Shown here: positions 133-15,865 of the stretch, in pieces | Layout of the letters: each line of letters starts with the position of its first letter | How positions within the stretch are numbered: position 1 is the stretch's first letter | Assembly (NCBI GenBank): GCA_031289145.1 | Contig: JAITQA010000131.1 | Span: forward strand, 1 to 33,787 | Origin: Dysgonamonadaceae bacterium | Lineage (GTDB): Bacteria; Bacteroidota; Bacteroidia; Bacteroidales; Azobacteroidaceae | Direction: 5' to 3' | DNA: 33,787 nt | Position numbers and translations under genes: made by a program | The notes under the pieces: generated by a model | What the model was told of the DNA's origin: nothing | Seen by the model: only the letters and a program-made list of their open reading frames with translations | Database searches by the model: none

Positions 133-1085
133 TGATATGCGGTTTTTTAAGAAAAACAGGAACAGGCTTGGTTTTGATTTTGTTGACGGCCTGCGTCAAG
201 GAATTATCTTACAACATAGACGGCGCAATTCTCCCGGTGGTGAATTGTGTTCTAAGCAATGATACCGTCCAGAAACTAACGCTGACGCAATCCGTAAGAA
301 TTGACGAGGCCTACGGTTTTAAGGAAATCAGGGACGCCGAAATTACACTTTGGGCAGACGAAGCAATCGCAGGCCGTTTTGAACGGACAGGTTATGCTAC
401 CTGGCAATTGCATTATCAGCCGGTAATCGGGCAGGCTTATCGCCTGACCGTTAAATTGGCCGATGGCACGGAGTTGACGGCAACTACCACCATGCCCGCA
501 GACAACCGAATTGTGCCGGCATGGGAAACAGACCACTATCCGGCAAGGCATTTCCGACAAACTACTGCCGAAAATCCCTGCTGGATATTTGTTCTTTCCA
601 ACCGGAACGGAGAAATAGATACAGAACATCCTTCTTTGAGCGACAAATCATTATTGAGATATGCCTTAGGCACCGATCACCCCTCAGTTGACCGGTTTAA
701 TGAAGATGAGACGGCTTCGGATTTGGTAGAGAGAATTTCCGTACCGGTGAGTCTCAGATACATTCGGACCCAGCCTTCGGATATAACAGGAGAAGGGATT
801 TTATTTAGCGTACAAACCAATTACTCCGGTTATGATTTTGTTTATTTCCGGACCGCTTCGGCTGAATATGACCAATACCTGAAAAGTTCTTGCCGCAAAT
901 TAATTGCCTACGAAGATGAGGACGATCCCATTCAATGGTTCAATGAAGACAGGGTATATTCCAATATTGAAAACGGATTGGGCATTTTCGCTGCTTATAG
1001 CGACCGGTTTATTTACTATCACTACAACTTTTTTATTTATTATGACAGTACACGTATTTTCCCGGATATTGCGTTTTACGATTAA
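129..1085 (+). CDS. DUF4249 family outer-membrane lipoprotein
   Basis: A 318-residue protein with a type II signal: hydrophobic stretch, then LLTAC with the lipidated cysteine at residue 22. The body has the beta-rich pattern of the DUF4249 family: an N-terminal domain with ITLWADE and TGYATWQL, a YRLTVKLADG strand, and near the C-terminus NGLGIFAAYS, which resembles the family's usual ending. DUF4249 proteins are typically encoded beside TonB-dependent receptors and are thought to be accessory surface lipoproteins; their biochemical role is unknown. Two consecutive ATGs (129 and 132) could start it; 129 gives the ATGA overlap with the upstream gene. The 3' end overlaps the downstream receptor gene by 44 bp. 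Family call is from pattern recognition, fairly confident. Confidence 0.75.
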   Translation: MMICGFLRKTGTGLVLILLTACVKELSYNIDGAILPVVNCVLSNDTVQKLTLTQSVRIDEAYGFKEIRDAEITLWADEAIAGRFERTGYATWQLHYQPVIGQAYRLTVKLADGTELTATTTMPADNRIVPAWETDHYPARHFRQTTAENPCWIFVLSNRNGEIDTEHPSLSDKSLLRYALGTDHPSVDRFNEDETASDLVERISVPVSLRYIRTQPSDITGEGILFSVQTNYSGYDFVYFRTASAEYDQYLKSSCRKLIAYEDEDDPIQWFNEDRVYSNIENGLGIFAAYSDRFIYYHYNFFIYYDSTRIFPDIAFYD

Positions 1086-3207
1086 ACATAAAAGAACCTT
1101 CAGCCTTATTTTTCTTTGCTGTCTTTCTTCATTCTATGTTGAAGCGCAAAACGACCGTCCGGAGCAACCCGCCCCGGATACTGCAAGGATAGTGACATTG
1201 GACAGCGTGGTAATCACTGGATCTCGCTTACGCCGGAATAATACGTATCAGTATACATTGAATGAGATCAAACCATTGGTTACAGTTCTTGGAGAACAGG
1301 ACGTGTTGCGTTATATCGGGACTTTGCCGGGTGTATCGCAGGGGATGGAGGGAGGTCTTGGCTTCTTTGTTCGCGGAAGCAACAGCGGTAACAATCGTTT
1401 TACATTAGACGATGTTCCTGTTTACGGCAACACACACTTATTCGGACTATTTTCCGTATTTTCGCCTGACATTGTAGAAAATGTAAATTTTTTCAGTGGT
1501 AAATTACCGGCATCTTCCGGTGATTTTTTATCTTCCTTGACACAGATTTCAAGCAAAAATCCGGACACTGAAAGCTATCATGGAAATTTTTCTATTTCTC
1601 CGTTTTTGGTCGGCGCAAACCTGACCGGCGATCTCGTGAAAAACAAACTGAGTTTTCAGGTTGCCGGGCGCTATTCGCTGCTAAGTCAGGAAATCCGACT
1701 GCTTGAGTCCATGCTGGAAATGGAGGGCGATATTGTCCCCGAAATGGCGGATTTGTATGTTAAACTGCATTACCGGCCTCATGCCAATCACACCTTGAAC
1801 GCATCCGGCTATTACAGTAACGACTATTTCAAATTTGAAAACAGCAATTTTTCTTCGCCAAACTTTGCGGAAAACTGGGGAAATAAGATTTTTCGTTTAT
1901 CCTGGAATTGGTCGTTATCCGATTCCTTACAGTTGAATACAATGGCTTATTACAACCGGTTTTTCACCGTTCAAAAACAGCAAATGTTTAATAATAACGT
2001 CTTGGACAAGGAATTTCGTATGCAAACCGCCTTAAATGAACAAGCGCTGCACTCGACGCTAAATTACCAAATGGGAAACCGAAAAGTTGCTGTCGGATTA
2101 CAAAGCATGCGAAGGGAAATATACCCGGCTTCCCGAAAAATTTATACGGGAAACAGAGATACGGAAAGCAATAACGTCCAGTCGGTCAATCCGCCTTCTT
2201 CTGCTGTTATCATCACCGCTTTTGGCGACTACGAATACAAATATAAATCCGTCACCGCTTCCGCAGGAATCAGGGAAAGCTATTACCGGATACACGATTA
2301 TCATTCGTTTGATAATAACATCCATTTGGCGCTTTCCATAGAACTTTCGAAAAAAAATGGACTGGAATTGAGCTATGACCGGTTTTCTCAATTTTATCAT
2401 GTATTAGAAGGATTACCGGTAGGATGGAATCTGGATTTGATGATTCCTTCGGACAAACAGTTTCAACCGGAGAAAGCGCAACAATTTTACGTGGGAGGAT
2501 TCCAAACGATTCAACAATTTTTTCTTTCTCTTGGCGCCTATTACAAAAACATGAAAAATCTGGCAAGCTATAAAAATCCGGCGAACATTTTTTCCATTCA
2601 AGACAATTGGAGAGATGAAGTGATAAACGGAAAAGGAACAAGTTATGGCTTGGAATTTCGGGGAGAAAGAAGCGGAGAAGACTGGAACGCCAGCCTTTCC
2701 TATTCTTTGTCGAAAACAGACCGGCTTTTTAAAGAGATAAATAACGGCGAAAAATTCCCATTTAAATTTGACAGACGACATATTCTGAATTTTACCGGAC
2801 AAATACGTACTCGCCAAAGACAGAACGGCAAACAATATTTTAGCCTGTCAAGCTCTTTTTCATCCGGACATAATATAACGGTCCCGATTGCAATGTATAT
2901 GGGAGTCGAACCGCCTTTCTGGAGTTGGCAACTCAGCAACGATCTGTCAATTAAAGAACAGGAAAATGCAATGTATCGCCAGTTAATGAGCGATGTGAAC
3001 GGTTATTCTTTGCCGTATTATCTGCGTATTGATGTTGGATATGGGTTTTTACACACTTGGAAATACTTTACGAGTGAATGTACAATCGGTGTGTTCAATG
3101 TTTTAAATCGACAAAATCCTTACCTGCTTTTTTATGATGAGGGGCAGTGGAAACAATTAAGTATCTTCCCATTAATTCCCTCTATCAAATGGTCGTTGGA
3201 ATTTTAA
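1042..3207 (+). CDS. TonB-dependent outer-membrane receptor
   Basis: The frame is open from before 904, but the ATG at 1042 is preferred because it leaves a proper signal peptide (basic n-region, FSLIFLCCLSS core, cleavage near VEA/QN at about residue 35), giving 721 aa. A TonB-box-like stretch LDSVVITGSR (53-62) precedes the plug domain (about 72-170) with VLRYIGTLPGV, FFVRGS and TLDDVPVY; the remainder is a strand-rich barrel ending in WSLEF, a typical outer-membrane C-terminal aromatic. There is no N-terminal carboxypeptidase-like domain of the SusC type. Such receptors bring siderophores, vitamins, peptides or glycans across the outer membrane using ExbBD-TonB energy. The substrate is not evident; the paired DUF4249 lipoprotein is the expected partner. 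The start lies inside the upstream gene, suggesting coupling. Confidence 0.85.
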   Translation: MTVHVFSRILRFTIKHKRTFSLIFLCCLSSFYVEAQNDRPEQPAPDTARIVTLDSVVITGSRLRRNNTYQYTLNEIKPLVTVLGEQDVLRYIGTLPGVSQGMEGGLGFFVRGSNSGNNRFTLDDVPVYGNTHLFGLFSVFSPDIVENVNFFSGKLPASSGDFLSSLTQISSKNPDTESYHGNFSISPFLVGANLTGDLVKNKLSFQVAGRYSLLSQEIRLLESMLEMEGDIVPEMADLYVKLHYRPHANHTLNASGYYSNDYFKFENSNFSSPNFAENWGNKIFRLSWNWSLSDSLQLNTMAYYNRFFTVQKQQMFNNNVLDKEFRMQTALNEQALHSTLNYQMGNRKVAVGLQSMRREIYPASRKIYTGNRDTESNNVQSVNPPSSAVIITAFGDYEYKYKSVTASAGIRESYYRIHDYHSFDNNIHLALSIELSKKNGLELSYDRFSQFYHVLEGLPVGWNLDLMIPSDKQFQPEKAQQFYVGGFQTIQQFFLSLGAYYKNMKNLASYKNPANIFSIQDNWRDEVINGKGTSYGLEFRGERSGEDWNASLSYSLSKTDRLFKEINNGEKFPFKFDRRHILNFTGQIRTRQRQNGKQYFSLSSSFSSGHNITVPIAMYMGVEPPFWSWQLSNDLSIKEQENAMYRQLMSDVNGYSLPYYLRIDVGYGFLHTWKYFTSECTIGVFNVLNRQNPYLLFYDEGQWKQLSIFPLIPSIKWSLEF

Positions 3208-5786: not shown

Positions 5787-6277
5787 AAAAAATGGTATTG
5801 CTGCTATTGTTCGTTTGCGCAGGTTTCTCCTGTGATGATGAAATTTATTCAAATATTCCGAATACAGAAGTAAATTTGCTGTTGGATTTGGATTTTAAGG
5901 ATAGAAATTTGGTTGCCAATCAGGCTTATGAAGTGATCATCGGACCTACGCCGGAAAGACCGGCTCATGCTTTGGACAGATTCGGATATGGGGGTATTTT
6001 GGTAATAAACGGTCAGGGAGTAGAGGTAATCAACCTGTTTGCTTACGACTTGTCTTGTCCGGTCGAAGCAGAACGAAATGTGCGGGTTGCTCCGAATAAT
6101 ACAAATACGCGGGATTCGGATGTGCCGGTGGCGCTTACCGCTACTTGTCCGAAATGTGGCGCGGTTTACAATATTTACAACGGACTTGGCAATCCCCAGA
6201 GCGGAACCAAATTTTATCTGAGGTCCTACCGGGTGATGAAAGAAAGCGGCGGAAGACAATATCGTGTGATTAACTAA
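5783..6277 (+). CDS. Small Rieske-like lipoprotein lacking the cluster histidines
   Basis: 164 aa with a lipoprotein signal ending GFSC (lipidated Cys17). The fold region resembles a Rieske domain: AYDLSCPV with Cys92, then TCPKCGAVYNIYNG with Cys122 and Cys125, then NPQSG and LRSYRV. In true Rieske proteins the ligands are Cys-x-His and Cys-x2-His; here the first histidine is Val94 and the second is Cys125, so canonical 2Fe-2S coordination is not possible. It may bind another metal, hold a disulfide, or be purely structural. It overlaps the argH stop by an ATGA, so it is translated from the same mRNA, with no obvious tie to arginine synthesis. Family call is an inference from motif layout. 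Confidence 0.6.
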   Translation: MKKMVLLLLFVCAGFSCDDEIYSNIPNTEVNLLLDLDFKDRNLVANQAYEVIIGPTPERPAHALDRFGYGGILVINGQGVEVINLFAYDLSCPVEAERNVRVAPNNTNTRDSDVPVALTATCPKCGAVYNIYNGLGNPQSGTKFYLRSYRVMKESGGRQYRVIN

Positions 6278-6292
6278 TTGATAAAAAAGAGG

Positions 6293-6577
6293 ATGGAAAC
6301 AACAAAAAACACTATAAAAAGAACCTTTCCTGTACTGCAAATGGGATGTGCAGCTTGTGCGGCAAGAGTGGAAAATGTGCTTCGCAAACAAAACGGCGTA
6401 ATTGAAGCCTCCGTAAATTTTGCGTCCGCCGAAGCCCTTGTCGAATACAATCCGACCCTTGTCAATCCCGAAAATATTCGGCAAGCCGTTCAGGATGCCG
6501 GATACGACCTGCTGATTGAAGAAAAAGATTCCACAGTCGAACTGGAAAACATTCAAAAAAAAAATTTAAATCCTTAG
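6293..6577 (+). CDS. copA: HMA copper-binding domain, zero-frame 5' part of copA
   Basis: Starting at the ATG at 6293, which has AGAGG directly upstream, this frame encodes 94 aa: an HMA ferredoxin-like domain with the copper-binding MGCAAC motif (Cys19 and Cys22) and the usual NFASAEALVEY strand and VQDAGYD end. It stops at the TAG at 6575-6577, just after ten consecutive A. The ATPase continues in the -1 frame, and the segment between is conserved CopA sequence, so this is either the first part of a broken copA or a chaperone-like product made without frameshifting, similar to a CopZ protein. A TTG at 6278 is in frame but less likely as a start. Confidence 0.75.
   Translation: METTKNTIKRTFPVLQMGCAACAARVENVLRKQNGVIEASVNFASAEALVEYNPTLVNPENIRQAVQDAGYDLLIEEKDSTVELENIQKKNLNP
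6555..6564 (+). other. A10 slippage site joining HMA and ATPase frames
   Basis: Ten A in a row (zero-frame reading CAA AAA AAA AAT). A -1 shift on A AAA AAA (6556-6562), or transcripts with one extra A, joins the HMA frame to the ATPase frame, giving a protein of about 738 aa, normal for a single-HMA CopA. The -1 frame after the run reads KFKSLGFKTFF then SIPVVIIGMF, which is the expected first transmembrane segment, so the joint is at or very near the run. Could also be a sequencing indel. Confidence 0.6.
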
Positions 6578-8508
6578 GTTTTAAAACCTTTTTCTCTTTT
6601 CTTTTCTCCATCCCTGTTGTCATAATAGGGATGTTCGATACCGGCTTGTCTTTTCCCAATGAAATCATGTTGATTCTTTCCGTTCCGGTTGTTTTCTACT
6701 TCGGCGGAGGGTTCTTTGTTCGGGCATGGAAACAAGCCTGTCACCGTTCGCTGAATATGGATACGCTTGTTTCGTTGAGTACGGGTATTGCTTTCTTATT
6801 CAGTCTTTTTAACACTTTATACCCGGAATTTTGGATCGCAAGAGGCTTGCATCCGCATGTCTATTTCGAAGCATCCTGTGTAATCATTGCTTTCGTTCTG
6901 TTGGGACGTCTGTTGGAAGAAAAAGCCAAAGGCAATACGGCAAGCGCCCTAAAAAAACTGATGGGGCTGCAACCCAAGACTGTAAGTATCATCACAGGTG
7001 AAGGGAAAATTGTCCAAACACCTATTGAGAAAGTGGTTCCGGGAAATGTGTTATTGGTTAAACCCGGTGAAAAAATAGCCCTTGACGGCCAGGTCATCCA
7101 AGGGCGTTCATATATAGACGAAAGCACGTTGAGCGGCGAGCCTGTTCCCGTGTTGAAGCAAGCAAACGACAAAGTTTTTGCAGGTACAATTAATCAGAAA
7201 GGCAGTTTCCGGTTTGTGGCGGAAAAAGTAGGCGCCGATACCTTGTTGGCGCAAATCATCCGGATGGTACGGGAAGCGCAAGGAAGCAAGGCGCCTGTAC
7301 AGAAATTAGTCGATAAGATAGCTGGTATATTCGTGCCGATAGTAATGGGTATTGCTGTGACGGCATTTATTGCCTGGTTAGTATGGGGCGGAACAGAAAG
7401 TTTTGCACAGGCCTTGCTGTCCTTGGTTACCGTATTGGTTATTGCCTGTCCCTGCGCTTTGGGACTGGCGACGCCTACGGCCATCATGGTAGGCGTCGGG
7501 AAAGCCGCCGAAAAAGGTATCCTGATAAAAGATGCCGGCTGTTTGGAATCCGCCCGGAAAATTGATACGATTGTGTTGGATAAAACGGGCACGATTACCG
7601 AAGGTAAACCCCTTGTGACCGGTGTTTTCCGGATGGACGGCGATGTGTATAAGGAATCCGTTTTGTGCAGTATCGAAAAACAATCGGAACATCCGTTGGC
7701 AGAAGCGATAGTCAATCATTATCGTAATTCGGAACTTCTTCCGGTCACTGATTTCGAAAGCATAAGCGGCCAAGGCGTAAAAGCCTGCGTTGACGCTTGT
7801 ACCTACTTTGTCGGCAATCGGAGTTTGTTAGTCGAAAACGGCATAAACATCGGTGAAGATTTTTTGGAAAAAGCGAACGAGTGGGACGCACAATCCGTGA
7901 CAAGCGTATGGTTTGCCGATACCGGGAAAGCCTTGGCTTTACTTGCCGTTGCCGATACAATCAAAGAAAGTTCAAGGGAGGCCGTTCGACAGTTGCAATC
8001 GGCAGGAATAGCAGTGTATATGCTCACAGGTGACAATGAGGCCACGGCCAAAGAAATAGCTGCAAGCGCCGGAATAAGCCGGTATCAGGCAGGCGTGTTG
8101 CCTCAACAAAAGGCAGGATTTATCAAACAATTGCAGTTGGACGGAAAAACGGTGGCCATGGTCGGCGACGGGATAAACGATACGGCTGCGCTTGCCCAGG
8201 CCGATTTGAGCATAGCCATGGGGAAGGGTAGCGATATTGCGATGGATGTAGCGGAAATGACCATTATCTCGTCCGATTTGACCAAAATTCCCGAAGCCTT
8301 GCGATTGTCCCGGCAAACAATTATCACTATCCGGCAGAATTTATTTTGGGCGTTTATCTACAATCTCATCGGCATACCCCTTGCCGCCGGTGTGCTGTAT
8401 CCTGTAAACGGTTTTTTGCTGAATCCGATGATTGCAGGCGCCGCAATGGCTTTAAGTAGCGTAAGTGTGGTCGGCAACAGTCTCCGGCTGCGGAATTGTT
8501 ATAAGTAG
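6562..8508 (+). CDS. copA: Copper-exporting P1B-type ATPase core (-1 frame)
   Basis: The -1 frame is open from the A run to the TAA-type end at 8508 and carries the complete ATPase core; it has no good start before the ATG at 6631, and starting there would remove the first transmembrane helix. Counting from that ATG, motifs are in order: actuator-domain TLSGEP (about 166-171), the Cu(I) motif CPC (273-275), phosphorylation site DKTGT (317-321), SEHPLAEA of the nucleotide-binding domain (352-359) and the hinge GDGIND (about 512). The CPC motif and the linked HMA domain indicate Cu(I) export across the inner membrane. Joined to the HMA frame the product would be about 738 aa. No copper regulator is visible nearby; the gene follows closely on the argH operon. 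Intact core argues against long-standing pseudogenisation. Confidence 0.85.
   Translation, partial: KFKSLGFKTFFSFLFSIPVVIIGMFDTGLSFPNEIMLILSVPVVFYFGGGFFVRAWKQACHRSLNMDTLVSLSTGIAFLFSLFNTLYPEFWIARGLHPHVYFEASCVIIAFVLLGRLLEEKAKGNTASALKKLMGLQPKTVSIITGEGKIVQTPIEKVVPGNVLLVKPGEKIALDGQVIQGRSYIDESTLSGEPVPVLKQANDKVFAGTINQKGSFRFVAEKVGADTLLAQIIRMVREAQGSKAPVQKLVDKIAGIFVPIVMGIAVTAFIAWLVWGGTESFAQALLSLVTVLVIACPCALGLATPTAIMVGVGKAAEKGILIKDAGCLESARKIDTIVLDKTGTITEGKPLVTGVFRMDGDVYKESVLCSIEKQSEHPLAEAIVNHYRNSELLPVTDFESISGQGVKACVDACTYFVGNRSLLVENGINIGEDFLEKANEWDAQSVTSVWFADTGKALALLAVADTIKESSREAVRQLQSAGIAVYMLTGDNEATAKEIAASAGISRYQAGVLPQQKAGFIKQLQLDGKTVAMVGDGINDTAALAQADLSIAMGKGSDIAMDVAEMTIISSDLTKIPEALRLSRQTIITIRQNLFWAFIYNLIGIPLAAGVLYPVNGFLLNPMIAGAAMALSSVSVVGNSLRLRNCYK
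6576..6589 (+). repeat. Perfect 14-bp palindrome beyond the slippage site
   Basis: AGGTTTTAAAACCT is self-complementary and could form a five-pair stem with a TTAA loop. It begins 11 bases after the A run and overlaps the zero-frame TAG. A pyrimidine-rich stretch follows. It could be a weak stimulatory structure for frameshifting, a weak terminator, or chance; the stem is short and AT-rich. Confidence 0.35.
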
Positions 8509-8512
8509 AAAG

Positions 8513-8587
8513 ACCGTATTTGTCAATTGAGAGAATTAAAATATTTTTATTACGGATATTATTTTTATCTTTGTTCCAAAATACGGT
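8513..8587. repeat. 9-bp inverted repeat flanking the R-M promoter
   Basis: ACCGTATTT at 8513-8521 is the exact reverse complement of AAATACGGT at 8579-8587. The arms bracket the -7 element and the right arm ends 8 bp before the start codon. A third TTACGG lies between them at 8550-8555. This could be an operator for self-control of the restriction enzyme gene, but no controller protein gene is present next to it. Confidence 0.35.
8566..8573 (+). promoter_or_regulatory. Bacteroidota -7 promoter element for the R-M gene
   Basis: TATCTTTG fits TAnnTTTG and lies 22 bp before the ATG at 8596, implying a very short leader. The region upstream is AT-rich with no clear -33 TTTG. It indicates that the restriction-modification gene is transcribed independently of copA. 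Confidence 0.55.
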
Positions 8588-8595
8588 AATTGATT

Positions 8596-11500
8596 ATGAA
8601 TTATAAGAATTTACTTATTGCATTAGGGTTCGGCCCTAAAGAAAATGCTGTAAATGTCTTCTCTAAGATATATCTACAGCCTGATAATTACGGTATTGAA
8701 GTTGATTTTGAGAAAAGTATCATCAATTATGGCAGCAAAATCAAATCAGAGAGTAAGACCACGCTCAATTTTGTACAAGATGAAAATTTTGTTGTGTTGG
8801 AATGTGTGGACAGGCTTTTGACAAAAGGATACAAACCAGAAAATATCATGCTTGAAAAAACATGGGGCGCCGGACATGGAACATCCGGACGGTTGGATAT
8901 TTGCGTTACTCGCGACGATGGTTCGGAATATTTGCTGATAGAGTGTAAAACTTTCGGCAAAGAGTTCGACAAGGAATTTGCCCGCATGAAACGCGATGGC
9001 GGACAACTTTTTACCTATTTCAAGTTTAGCAATAAAGCAGACATTTTAATGCTTTACGCCTCAGAACTGCAAACCAACAATGGTGCTTGCCCCATTGTCG
9101 GTGCTTGCCCCATTGCCGGTTATCGCAATGAAATCGTAAAAATCGAAGACGATTACCGCACGGGCGACGTAAAAGATTTTTATGATAAATGGAACAAACT
9201 GACCAAAGATAACGGTGTTTTTGATTTGTGGGTAAAACCCTATAATTTTGAGAGCAAGGCATTAACGCCAAAACAGTTAAAGCCTATCTTACAAGAAGAC
9301 AGCAGTTTTATTTTCAATAGTTTTCTGGAAATTTTGCGTCATAATGTTGTGTCCGATAAACCCAATGCTTTTAACAAGATTTTTACGTTATTTCTCTGTA
9401 AAGTTTATGATGAAAAGACAACAAAACCAAATCAGGAATTAAAATTTCAGTGGTTGGAAGGAAAAGACGACGATGTGCGTTTTCAAATACGCTTAACCAA
9501 TCTGTATAAAGACGGTATGCGCGATTTTTTAGAAAAGGAGGTTACCGATTTTTCCGAAGCCGATTTTGATACGGAATACAACTATTTGGACGAAAAAACC
9601 AAACAGTCATTACTTCACAAAATCAATAAACTTCGTTTGGAAAAAAATAACGAGTTTGCCATTAAAGAAGTATATGATGAAAAATCGTTCAAGGAAAATG
9701 CCAAAATTGTAAAAGAAGTTGTTGTACTGTTGCAAAACTTTCGGTTGCGTTACAACAAACGCCAACAATACCTTTCCGATTTTTTTGAGCTTTTGTTGAC
9801 TACCGGACTGAAACAGGAATCGGGACAGTTTTTCACTCCAGTTCCGATTGCTCAATTTATCATTAAAAGTTTGCCGATTGATATTCTGGTAGATAAGAAA
9901 TTGGAAAAAGGCGAAACCAATAATTTGTTACCCTTCTTAATTGATTATGCTGCCGGCAGTGGTCATTTCCTGACCGAAAGTATGCACGAAATGCAACGTC
10001 TGCTTGATAAGAAAAATTCTGAAAATTACATAGACAGTACTGCAAAAAAGATAACAGGTTGGCATACTGACCATTTCGATTGGGCGACGCAATATATTTA
10101 TGGCGTTGAAAAGGATTATCGTCTCGTTAAAGTAGGTAAAGTGGGCTGCTATTTGCACGGCGATGGTTTAGCTAATGTTATTTTGAGCGATGGTTTGGCT
10201 AATTTTGAAACTTCCGAATACAAAGGCAAATTGCATTTTCACGACAAAGATTTTCCGAAAGAAAACAAACAATTCGATATACTTGTGTCCAATCCGCCTT
10301 ATTCGGTTTCGGCTTTCAAAAATGCGGCGCGAGAATATTACACCGAAAATGATTTTGAACTTTACGATATGCTGACTGATAACAGTTCCGAAATTGAATG
10401 TCTGTTTGTCGAACGCACCAAACAGTTACTCAAAGACGGCGGCGTGGCAGGCGTTATTTTGCCGAGTTCAATTCTCAGCAATGAAGGCATATACACCAAA
10501 GCCCGCGAAATCATGCTGCAATATTTTGAAATAATCGCCATTACGGAATTAGGCTCCAATACCTTTATGGCGACAGGGACAAATACGGTTGTGCTGTTTC
10601 TCCGACGCAGAAATAATTACGACAGTATAAATCTGAAAATCTCCATAGAAACGTTTTTTACTACCTTTAGAGATGTAACATTGAACGGCATAGAAAACCC
10701 TGTTGCAAAATACCTTAGTCATGTATGGGAAGGTATTGCATTTGATGATTATGTGACTTTGTTAAAAATATATCCTAACGAAGCAGTAAAAAATCACGAG
10801 TTATACAAAGAATACGACAAAAAAATAAAAGCAAAAACGCAAGGCGAAAAACACCGCAATATCATTGAAATAGAAAAAGAAAAGTTGTTGTATTTCATTT
10901 TGGCTTATCCGCAAAAAAATGTGGTTTTGGTAAAAACAGGGGAAAAAGACGCCGAAAAGCGTTTTTTAGGATACGAATTTTCCAACCGGCGCGGCAGCGA
11001 AGGCATTCACCCGATACAGCGCGGCAAAACCATTGACGAATGTACCCGATTATTTGATGAAGAAACATTCGACAATCCCGAAAAAGCAAGTACCTACATT
11101 TACAAAGCTTTTGCAGGAAATTATGACTATCCGATACACGAAAGTTTGAAAGAAAATATTTCCCGCGTTCGTTTGGTTGATATGCTTACTTTTGACCGGG
11201 CAATATTTGCAAAAAATATCTCTACGGCAATTAAAAAAAAAGTAAGGATTGAAAGTAAATGGGAAGTGGTGAAAATAAATCAATTGGTTGATATTGTTCG
11301 AGGAGCGTCTCCAAGACCAATAAGAGAATTTATTACTGATGAACCTAATGGTATCAATTGGATAAAAATAGGCGATGTAAAACCGAACTCTAAATATGTT
11401 ACAGAAACCGAAGAAAAAATAACTCCGTCCGGCGCGGAAAAATCAAGATTTGTTAATGAAGGCGACTTTATTTTGTCTAATTCAATGAGTTTTGGAAGAC

Positions 11501-12637: not shown

Positions 12638-13909
12638 ATGAATATTATACTTTTAGGTTCCGGAGGAAGAGAGCATGCTTTGGCTTGGAAAATAAAGCAA
12701 AGTCCAAAGATAGACAAACTTTTTATTGCACCCGGAAATGCCGGGACTGCTCAGGTAGGCGTCAATGTCCCGATTGCAGCAACTGATTTTGTGGCCTTAA
12801 AAAAAACGGTTTTGGAAAACGACATTAAAATGGTTGTTGTAGGGCCGGAAGACCCATTGGTGAAAGGTGTTTATGATTTTTTTCAACAAGATGCGGAACT
12901 GAAAAATATTCCGGTCATCGGCCCTTCTCAGCAAGGGGCGCAATTAGAAGGCAGTAAAGATTTTGCAAAAGCATTCATGATGCGGCACAAAATCCCGACG
13001 GCTCAGTACCTGAGTGTAACGAAAGAAAACCTTCCGCAAGGCATTATTTTTCTTGAATCGCTAAAGCCGCCTTATGTTCTCAAAGCTGACGGATTGGCTG
13101 CAGGCAAAGGCGTATTGATTATCGACAATCTGCCGGAGGCTCAAAAAGAATTAAATGCCATGCTGAATGGTAGCTTTGGTAAAGCCGGCGAAAAAGTAGT
13201 CATTGAAGAATTCCTTTCGGGAATCGAATGTTCTGTTTTTGTAATGACCGACGGCAAATCCTACAAAATCCTGCCGGAAGCCAAGGATTACAAACGTATC
13301 GGCGAAAAAGATACCGGTCTGAATACAGGTGGAATGGGGGCTGTATCCCCTGTTTCTTTTGTTGACCGGGATTTTATGAAAAAAGTGGAAGAACGGATTG
13401 TAATACCAACTATCGAAGGGTTAAAAGCGGAAAAAATTGATTATAAGGGATTTATCTTTCTTGGTCTGATTAATGTAAATGACAATCCGGTGGTAATTGA
13501 ATACAATTGCCGGCTGGGCGACCCGGAAACCGAAGTCGTGATACCCAGAATTCAATCCGATTTTGTTGATTTGCTGAATGGTATCGCACAAGAAAATTTA
13601 GCTGAAAAAAAACTGCTTATTGATGAGCGTTCCGCAACAACCGTTATGTTGGTATCCGGCGGCTATCCGGGCGATTATGAAAAGGGGAAAATTATTTCAG
13701 GATTAGATAAGACTGAGGACAGCATCATTTTTCACGCAGGAACTGTTGAAAAAGACGAAAAAATATTGACAAATGGCGGCCGGGTGATAGCAGTCACTTC
13801 CTACGGAAAAAACAAAAATGAAGCTTTGGCACAATCTTTCAAAAATGCGGAAATCATTGGGTTTGATGGAAAATATTATCGGAAAGACATTGGGTTTGAT
13901 TTGGAATAA
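12638..13909 (+). CDS. purD: Phosphoribosylamine--glycine ligase
   Basis: 423 aa, standard length. It joins phosphoribosylamine and glycine with ATP to form GAR, the second step of purine synthesis. ATG 12638 is chosen because GGAGG stands at 12626-12630, the N-terminus LLGSGGREHALAW is the family's conserved start, and the promoter lies downstream of the alternative start at 12524. ATP-grasp features: LKADGLAAGKG (148-158), NTGGMGAVSP (229-238) and the PurD signature RLGDPETE (292-299). Its TAA overlaps the ATG of the following membrane-protein gene by one base (TAATG), so the two are probably translated together. Confident. Confidence 0.95.
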   Translation: MNIILLGSGGREHALAWKIKQSPKIDKLFIAPGNAGTAQVGVNVPIAATDFVALKKTVLENDIKMVVVGPEDPLVKGVYDFFQQDAELKNIPVIGPSQQGAQLEGSKDFAKAFMMRHKIPTAQYLSVTKENLPQGIIFLESLKPPYVLKADGLAAGKGVLIIDNLPEAQKELNAMLNGSFGKAGEKVVIEEFLSGIECSVFVMTDGKSYKILPEAKDYKRIGEKDTGLNTGGMGAVSPVSFVDRDFMKKVEERIVIPTIEGLKAEKIDYKGFIFLGLINVNDNPVVIEYNCRLGDPETEVVIPRIQSDFVDLLNGIAQENLAEKKLLIDERSATTVMLVSGGYPGDYEKGKIISGLDKTEDSIIFHAGTVEKDEKILTNGGRVIAVTSYGKNKNEALAQSFKNAEIIGFDGKYYRKDIGFDLE

Positions 13910-14898
13910 TGAACATTGACAAAATTCACAAAGCGTTTGTATCCGGCCGTTTGTTGCTATTGTGCACGCTGCTTGGTTTTGTAGCTTTGCGTGTGTACGA
14001 TGTCGGCGGCGATTGGCGTAACCCCCATTGCTGGGTCAGTACCTTTATCCAAATCGGCATTGCGCTATTGCTCTTACAGTTAAACCATGTTTTTAACATT
14101 ATCAGGAGCCGAACCCTGCTTCCGGCAATTTTTTATTTGGTTTTTGCAAGTAGCGATGCATCGTTCGCCTTTGATTCGGCCGGGAGTATTTCCGCGTTCT
14201 GTGTGCTTATCAATTATTTCTTTTTATTTAATTCCTATCAACAAGCGGAATCACAAATCAATGCTTTGAATATTTCGCTTTCGCTGACTTTAGGGAGTTT
14301 ATTCTGGCCGCAATTGTTGCTGTTTTTTCCTGTTTTCTGGTATGGTTTCCATCGTTTTCATAGCTTCAATTTACGGGTGTTTATGGCAAGCATCATCGGT
14401 GTTTTGGCCGTATACTTGTTTATTGTCACATGGTGTGTCTATGCGGGAGATTGGCATATTTTCTTTTCAGCTATACCTGAACCGGACAAATGCTTATCCA
14501 TACAAATCCCGGATTTTACAGTATTGAATTGGATGGTTATCGGTTTTACTTTCTTAATCTGTTTAATGACAGGATTTAATTTATTTGGTTCCGGACTCTC
14601 TGAAAAAATCAGAACGGTTTCTATTTTGAATTACCTGTATATTTCTTCTTTCATCATTTTAATACCTTTTCTCTTACAAAGTGAATCCCAAACAAGCTGG
14701 TCGCTGATAATCTGGATTCCTGTAACGATCCTTATATCACATTTATTTACTTTGTCCAATAGGAAATACATCAAATACATGATGCTGTTTTTTTTCTTTT
14801 TCCTTTTAGGGATGAGCTTTTTGCAGCATTTTTACCCGCAGCATTTCTCTTTTTCCGGGAGGCCCTGGTATACGTTCTACACAGAAACCGGCTTGTAG
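13909..14898 (+). CDS. Polytopic membrane protein of unknown function
   Basis: 329 aa dominated by hydrophobic segments; I count eight or nine likely transmembrane helices, such as LLLLCTLLGFVAL, FIQIGIALLLLQL, LFWPQLLLFFPVFWYGF and MVIGFTFLICLMTGF. No enzymatic motif is seen. The layout, and a location directly after purD, recall the Bacteroidota DUF6427 membrane family, but I am unsure. Translation is coupled to purD by TAATG. The last 93 bp lie opposite the end of mnmD on the other strand, so the C-terminal tail after the last helix is constrained by, or may be an accident of, the overlapping gene. Confidence 0.7.
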   Translation: MNIDKIHKAFVSGRLLLLCTLLGFVALRVYDVGGDWRNPHCWVSTFIQIGIALLLLQLNHVFNIIRSRTLLPAIFYLVFASSDASFAFDSAGSISAFCVLINYFFLFNSYQQAESQINALNISLSLTLGSLFWPQLLLFFPVFWYGFHRFHSFNLRVFMASIIGVLAVYLFIVTWCVYAGDWHIFFSAIPEPDKCLSIQIPDFTVLNWMVIGFTFLICLMTGFNLFGSGLSEKIRTVSILNYLYISSFIILIPFLLQSESQTSWSLIIWIPVTILISHLFTLSNRKYIKYMMLFFFFFLLGMSFLQHFYPQHFSFSGRPWYTFYTETGL

Positions 14899-15465
14899 CA
14901 TCATCCGGCGAACGCTTCCTTTGGCACAATAAGTAGTAAGAATCCCGCCCGGATTCATCGAAGAAAATACTTTGTCGAATAATTCCTGTGACCAGACTTC
15001 AGGTTGCTTATCCGGTGCAAAAGCATCATAATAAACCACATCGTAAAATTCAGGAAAATCGAAATCCGAAAAGTCGGTTTGTATTTTACAGAGATTAAAA
15101 AACGGATTCAGTTGCACGGGAAACGCCCATTCACTTTGGTGTATTGTTTGGAAAAAGTCCTTATCTGTTCCCGGATAATTGAGTTTTTCCACAATTTCCT
15201 GCGGCAGTGGAAATTTTTCCAACCCGGTATAAAAAACTTTTACCTGCCTCTTTTCTGCTTCTAATGCTGTCAATAAAGCATTTAAACCCGAACCGAAACC
15301 AAACTCAAGTATACGAATTTCGGGTTTCAGGCATTGATTGAATCCGGCTTCGATATAAACATGCCGCGATTCCTGTATAGCCCCATTGACCGAATGGTAA
15401 TGTTCGTCCAATTCCGGAACGAAAAGAGTGGACGAACCATCGGCGGTAGATTCAATAACCGGCAT
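14806..15465 (-). CDS. mnmD: MnmD-type tRNA mnm5s2U methyltransferase
   Basis: 219 aa, matching the stand-alone DUF752 methyltransferase (the N-terminal half of MnmC without the oxidase). Such enzymes methylate aminomethyluridine at the wobble position 34 of tRNA. SAM-binding motif LEFGFGSGLN (53-62), the family motif YYDAFAPDKQPEVW (145-158) and the conserved ending RIPGPPGKREM (198-208) are all visible. ATG 15465 is used; two TTG codons just upstream are less likely. The start overlaps the end of the thioesterase gene by 14 bp, so the two form a small operon. Its 3' end overlaps the convergent membrane-protein gene by 93 bp. Confidence 0.88.
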   Translation of the reverse strand: MPVIESTADGSSTLFVPELDEHYHSVNGAIQESRHVYIEAGFNQCLKPEIRILEFGFGSGLNALLTALEAEKRQVKVFYTGLEKFPLPQEIVEKLNYPGTDKDFFQTIHQSEWAFPVQLNPFFNLCKIQTDFSDFDFPEFYDVVYYDAFAPDKQPEVWSQELFDKVFSSMNPGGILTTYCAKGSVRRMMLQAGFCVERIPGPPGKREMLRVKMLQKAHP

Positions 15466-15865
15466 TTTCAACAAACGGCAATGAAAGTTCTTTTCTGAAG
15501 GCTGTAGCCGTAAACAAGGCGATTAATTCCTGCGCTTGATTGGTAACATGCACTTCAAAAGTCGCTAATTTTTTATGAACGTGCACCGCTTTGGCTTCCG
15601 CAAAAAGTGTTCCGTTTCCCACTCCCTTGAAATAACGTATGCTCGTTTCAACTGACATGGCCAGATTACCGTAAGCGTTAACCGCCGCCGCAAAAGCCAA
15701 ATCTGCCAAGGTAAAAATCGCACCGCCCTGCACCACATTACCGGCATTGAGATGCATATCGCAAATATCCATTTTTGCCAAGGCTTTTCCCGGCTCGACT
15801 GCCAATAATTCGATACCTGAAAATACGGCGTAACGGTCGTTTTTAAAGAATTCTTTGATGGTCAT
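15452..15865 (-). CDS. PaaI-like hotdog-fold thioesterase
   Basis: 137 aa. The hotdog segment HLNAGNVVQGGAIFTLAD (38-55) has the asparagine/glycine and acidic residues used for thioester hydrolysis in PaaI/YbgC-like enzymes, followed by the strand SVETSIRYFKGV. It probably hydrolyses an acyl- or aryl-CoA in the cytosol; the substrate is unknown. It has its own promoter element 15 bp upstream of the start codon and is followed, with a 14-bp overlap, by mnmD. Family confident, substrate not. Confidence 0.85.
   Translation of the reverse strand: MTIKEFFKNDRYAVFSGIELLAVEPGKALAKMDICDMHLNAGNVVQGGAIFTLADLAFAAAVNAYGNLAMSVETSIRYFKGVGNGTLFAEAKAVHVHKKLATFEVHVTNQAQELIALFTATAFRKELSLPFVENAGY

Follow-up and report, generated by a model that had tools for sequence, protein, structure and literature searches.

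We think it likely that slippage on a run of ten A's allows a single copA gene to produce two proteins. The gene lies in a window of 33,787 nucleotides (the whole stretch of DNA that was analysed), which is contig C167 of the draft genome G000 of a Bacteroidales bacterium (3.94 Mb, 96% complete). If the A10 run is read faithfully, then the product would be a CopZ-like protein of 94 amino acids that contains only an HMA domain, and this would be the default product. If RNA polymerase slips back on the run, then the mRNA would have one extra A (A11) and would encode a Cu(I) pump of 738 amino acids. Transcripts with A10 or A12 would both give the HMA-only protein. Slippage by the polymerase is probably the main mechanism, and it is the best supported one; ribosomal slipping into the -1 frame might assist. 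According to PMC5574713, insertions of a single base are the predominant slippage error at A/T runs and become more frequent as the run lengthens, but no frame-restoring error was detected there.

Table 1. Features of the copA locus, in positions of the window
Feature	Position	Strand	Evidence
Zero-frame ORF of 94 amino acids with an HMA (copper-binding) domain and MGCAAC; predicted default product	6293..6577	+	PF00403, residues 11-72, 57.3 bits
A10 run, proposed slippage site	6555..6564	+	Same A10 in L033; in-frame A10 in L034
Overlapping X_XXY_YYZ heptamers in the zero frame (A_AAA_AAA, A_AAA_AAU, A_AAU_UUA, U_UUA_AAU); possible ribosomal -1 sites	6556..6571	+	
Zero-frame TAG that closes the short form, 4 codons past the A10 run	6575..6577	+	Identical TAG in L033
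Cu(I) P1B-ATPase core in the -1 frame, 647 amino acids plus stop	6565..8508	+	TIGR01511, 588 bits
Two small predicted RNA hairpins: 6576-6589 (weak) and 6609-6633 (stronger, distant from the site)	6576..6633	+	z = -2.9

A first-pass annotation had described copA as split at the A10 run, with the ATPase core continuing in the -1 frame and showing no other damage, and our analysis agrees (Table 1), including on the lengths of the two products (94 and about 738 amino acids). The HMA domain of the short ORF is complete. The score of the core is well above the cutoff of TIGR01511 (397 bits), and the five ATPase motifs that we looked for (CPC, DKTGT, [ST]GE, HP, and GDGxND) were all found. By its score and by the presence of CPC, DKTGT, and GDGxND, this is the core of a Cu(I) P1B-1 ATPase (CopA). 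A CopA should also have an N-terminal HMA domain in the same frame, but here the HMA domain is in the zero frame and the core is in the -1 frame, so the locus encodes a usual CopA only if it is recoded. After the run, the zero frame ends after 4 codons and the third register ends after 1 codon, so two of the three registers yield the short form. This corresponds to poly-A recoding of the Thermus dnaX type, with at least 9 A's at the transition and nearby stops in the other registers. In the core from the window, 28 of 36 lysine codons are AAA, so at this locus the run alone is weak evidence. An Rfam scan of positions 6000-8700 found nothing above the gathering score, and a search for relatives of the HMA domain in viral contigs gave just one weak match, which was uninformative.

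The core might instead start independently and function without the HMA part. The first ATG, GTG, or TTG of the -1 frame after its preceding stop is the ATG at 6631, and the catalytic motifs are downstream of it. However, this ATG is within the first membrane segment, so the first half of that segment requires a change of frame, and a start there would cut the segment in two. Also, the -1 frame is conserved upstream of the ATG: across these 22 codons, the window and its closest relative (L033, below) differ by 3 synonymous and 2 conservative changes. We consider an independent start to be highly improbable.

Among named relatives, the one with the closest core is L033, from Candidatus Symbiothrix sp. 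Po218_bin22 (Bacteroidales), at 92% amino acid identity. Its A10 run, the bases that follow as far as the TAG, and the -1 offset of its core are all identical to those in the window. The two loci are 90% identical in DNA over 3.37 kb. The usual line between species is about 95% identity, so L033 represents a second species. We considered an error in sequencing or assembly and rejected it, because separate assemblies of different species have the same A10 and the same offset. We also rejected special conservation of the DNA around the run, as the 48 identical bases there are just the 9th longest identical stretch of the region, which is ordinary for this pair.

When 24 cores were placed in a tree, the window grouped with L033 (support 100/100) and then with L034 (labelled Tannerella sp. 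Pq454_bin22; support 100/99). L034 has an A10 at the equivalent place, with the HMA domain and the core in frame. Both of the other registers in L034 stop within 4 codons, so either slip would give a short HMA protein. L034 differs from the window in the base after the run, not in the length of the run. The parsimonious reading of these sequences, which is not proof, would be that register was lost once, before the window and L033 diverged; losses in parallel are also possible.

The first-pass annotation had proposed aligning copA from relatives to see if the run and the offset are conserved. This holds for L033. The annotation had also counted relatives with an open frame and no A run as evidence against its reading, and most relatives are indeed of this kind, with one unbroken frame and without a long run. 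We examined 111 loci that contain the core (several of them are duplicated between collections). In 101 of these, the HMA domain and the core are in one frame; another 7 have no HMA match. The remaining 3 are offset, and these are L033 and two entries for the window itself (L001 and L003).

One intact frame in most relatives is what we would expect if the gene in the window were an early pseudogene, in which a single base was lost recently and the core is no longer made. However, the offset is common to two species at dS of 0.32. We computed dN/dS for the window against G058, which is the genome that contains L033, using genes within two stretches of G058 (the window's ORFs at 129-1085 and 904-3207 have no counterpart in those stretches). 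From position 6631 on, the core has dN = 0.041, dS = 0.317, and dN/dS = 0.129 (interval 0.089-0.186), with no stop in 623 codons. For 14 other genes from the same two genomes, dN/dS ranged from 0.047 (argH) to 0.316, and two of these (with dN/dS of 0.316 and 0.098) have stops in the G058 copy. The core is as constrained as neighbouring genes and, provided that both species inherited the same frameshift, has been so ever since it arose. A pseudogene should show relaxed selection past the frameshift, which is not what we found, so we reject this explanation as the least probable of those we considered. Also, G000 has no other match to the core above 31% identity. The out-of-frame core is thus under purifying selection, and it is very probable that the cell makes both proteins by slipping on the run. 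For the HMA part, the estimate is 0.280 with a wide interval (0.10-0.82; 93 codons). Separately, comparing the window's 13909-15474 to L184 showed that the neighbouring ORFs at 13909-14898 and 14806-15474 have 2 and 1 stops, respectively, in the G058 copy.

The arrangement in the window, where the zero frame encodes the short form and a -1 shift leads to the pump, had been described in the first-pass annotation as inverted. It is common to two species of this clade, with a constrained core, and it recurs in another family. We searched 393 genomes from across the order, which were drawn from a larger group; at least 150 of them had a match at 1e-150. Among the matches listed, three genomes from one genus of another family have an inverted copA: G246 (L379), G328 (L380), and G147 (L381). 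In each of these, the zero frame ends with ...IQKKK* directly at the end of an A10 run, and another frame carries the core without a stop for 643-646 codons. By sequence, then, the design of an HMA-only protein plus a pump via -1 is present in 2 + 3 genomes. The three cores are 72-77% identical to each other, with dN of 0.17-0.22 and dS of 1.7-2.1 (saturated), and the GC content of these loci is 52-61% over 3.1-3.2 kb. In the tree, these cores form a clade of their own (100/99), and the deeper forks are weak. As the window pair and these three are in separate clades, there were at least two flips of register, or flips and returns.

Judging the frame by the open length of the core frame alone overlooks cases such as G147, so we read 80 further copA linkers individually. 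These were the best-ranked further matches listed from across the order, down to E = 1.5e-202, leaving out G352 and G093, whose matches begin inside the core. None of the 80 is split: 64 are in frame by motif, and 16 have no motif match but have a core frame that is open for 116-166 codons upstream. Nor is there a run of nine or more A's within 200 bases upstream of the core in any of the 80. A lower-ranked match, G341:C2 (L297), has no run of A8 or longer and, by eye, no HMA domain.

The main rival to slippage by the polymerase is programmed -1 frameshifting by the ribosome on A-rich heptamers, which would have the same outcome. Ribosomal -1 sites follow the heptamer rule X_XXY_YYZ, and the window has four overlapping slippery heptamers. 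The predicted fold downstream of them is better than 200 of 200 shuffles, but the nearer hairpin is weak and the stronger one begins about 38 bases past the last heptamer. (One base pair of the stronger hairpin is C-G in the window but A-U in L033, and neither change alters the amino acid encoded in the -1 frame. This is a single pair and may be due to chance.) In G246, G328, and G147, A_AAA_AAG is immediately before the stop, and this is the heptamer of E. coli dnaX, as given in PMC3711429. However, A10 is longer than a heptamer needs to be, and in all three of these genomes the run is extended upstream by CAA, which is a rare codon. Across the three cores, 3 of 42 glutamine codons are CAA and 29 of 68 lysine codons are AAA, so the chance that CAA-AAA-AAA was kept in all three lineages is about 2e-6 (taking the lineages as independent). 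Slippage on a heptamer does not need the CAA, yet it was kept, which points to the run itself as the element. Given this and the dnaX genes described below, we view frameshifting by the ribosome without polymerase slippage as unlikely, though it is the most serious alternative.

Other genes with long A runs are relevant to this choice. G000 has 35 distinct runs of A10 or longer, including the one in copA. Of the 34 others, 11 are inside a stop-to-stop frame of at least 100 codons, with at least 15 codons on each side. At just two of the 35 runs is a frame split, and these are in copA and dnaX. Among the other runs that were flagged as possible splits, two are at gene starts and one (L135) is among short ORFs of 55-75 codons. 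G058 has 32 such runs and again has copA and dnaX at frame splits; three other runs that were flagged in G058 were rejected, as by eye they are at gene starts or between non-matching ORFs. In dnaX from G000 (L181:391-2080; G000:C165:28039-31049), a gamma-like ORF of 374 amino acids ends at an A11 run and the tau end is in the -1 frame. This tau end has a 75-bit match to the final part of PRK14971. G058 (L220) is the same, with A11 and tau in the -1 frame.

Of the 51 dnaX loci that we examined, a run of at least nine A's is close to the gamma/tau junction in 43 and absent from it in the other 8. An in-frame A10 is at the junction in all 28 of the same-genus loci other than G000 (not counting G005, G009, and G024, which have partial or weak dnaX matches), and also in G003. 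G246, G328, and G147 have an in-frame A10 at the junction as well, and in G021 the run is about 68 bases further along. Seven of the 43 have a flipped register: G000, G058, G037, G051, and G046 need one extra A, while G052 and G057 need two extra A's or one fewer. In PMC3711429, flips of both signs are taken as a mark of slippage by the polymerase, so by that criterion the flips in dnaX of this order point to polymerase slippage, which argues against a ribosomal mechanism.

A run of A10-A13 was also seen at the linker between CoaC and CoaB in a good part of the coaBC loci that we examined (L174:944-2134; L285, L284, and L288). In G000 and G058, coaBC has an in-frame A11; the CoaB part is in another frame in G021 (A10), G044 (A11), and G037 (A13). 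From these sequences, coaBC is possibly a third gene with poly-A recoding. A literature search found no paper on transcriptional slippage in coaBC.

A long homopolymer could also point to phase variation, in which replication slippage changes the length of the run and turns the pump on or off, and the assemblies would represent the off state. L034, with a run of equal length, is in register. However, L034 is distinguished by the base after its run and not by run length, the A10 is off-register in all five genomes (G000, L033, G246, G328, and G147), and dnaX, whose tau and gamma forms are a known case of slippage (PMC1088944 and PMC3711429), has the same design. We think phase variation very unlikely as the explanation; it could coexist with slippage in expression, and the odds of the two overlap slightly.

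Returning to two proteins from slippage on the run, we infer that the short form would be a cytosolic copper chaperone, by analogy to CopA(Z) of E. coli. The HMA ORF scores below the cutoffs of the NCBIfam models for CopZ (49.2 versus 95 bits and 47.7 versus 91 bits). The only other HMA match in G000 is a lipoprotein-like ORF of 131 amino acids, while G058 has further HMA proteins, one of which has several HMA-like stretches. In G246, G328, and G147 (each 99% complete), the HMA domain of copA is the sole HMA match in the genome at E = 0.001.

More broadly, the chaperone-first copA might be a programmed element that took the place of a separate copZ, with at least two origins within the Bacteroidales. 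In this order, the long A runs between domains in copA, dnaX, and coaBC might act as slippage switches. Their efficiency would be high enough to make the register in the genome nearly neutral, so that it could change in either direction with both products supplied throughout. We offer this tentatively and lean slightly against it as a whole. The register flips of these three genes among relatives provide a natural experiment on how frameshift mutations become nearly neutral where slippage is efficient. Gene callers would label such genes as broken.

In the known system, E. coli copA produces an HMA-only chaperone, CopA(Z), as well as the pump, via a -1 shift (Meydan et al. 2017, as described in PMC6747150 and PMC5009743). 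The products that we predict from the window's sequence are alike, with an HMA-only product, a pump, and a -1 shift after the HMA domain. In E. coli, however, the zero frame yields the pump and the shift is needed for the chaperone, whereas in the window this is reversed, the shift is at an A10 run, and there is a single HMA domain. If our proposal is true, then there is a second way to obtain a copper chaperone and a pump from one gene, in which the default product is the opposite one. Among the titles and opening lines of abstracts, no paper reported a copA in which the pump depends on a frameshift. Frameshifting in human ATP7B has been doubted (PMC9548414).

The closest precedent for the run itself is dnaX. 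Antonov et al. 2013 (PMC3711429) describe two-ORF dnaX genes in which tau is made by recoding at A10, with nine such dnaX genes having A10; the words "copper" and "ATPase" are absent from the main text of that paper. Thermus dnaX uses slippage on A9 (PMC1088944). Two-ORF dnaX is like the window's copA in having a run of A9-A10, a short form in the zero frame, and a long form that needs recoding, and it occurs in the window's own genome as well. It differs in gene and function. In Blochmannia and Buchnera, frameshifts at poly(A) are kept by selection (PMC3017870, citing Tamas 2008 and Wernegreen 2010). These are also ancestral frameshifts at A runs in genes that are otherwise intact; the genomes there are very AT-rich, and the frameshifts are interpreted as indels whose effect slippage may correct. 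In the window's copA, by contrast, each of the two readings seems to give a meaningful protein, and the same design is found again at loci with a GC content of 52-61%.
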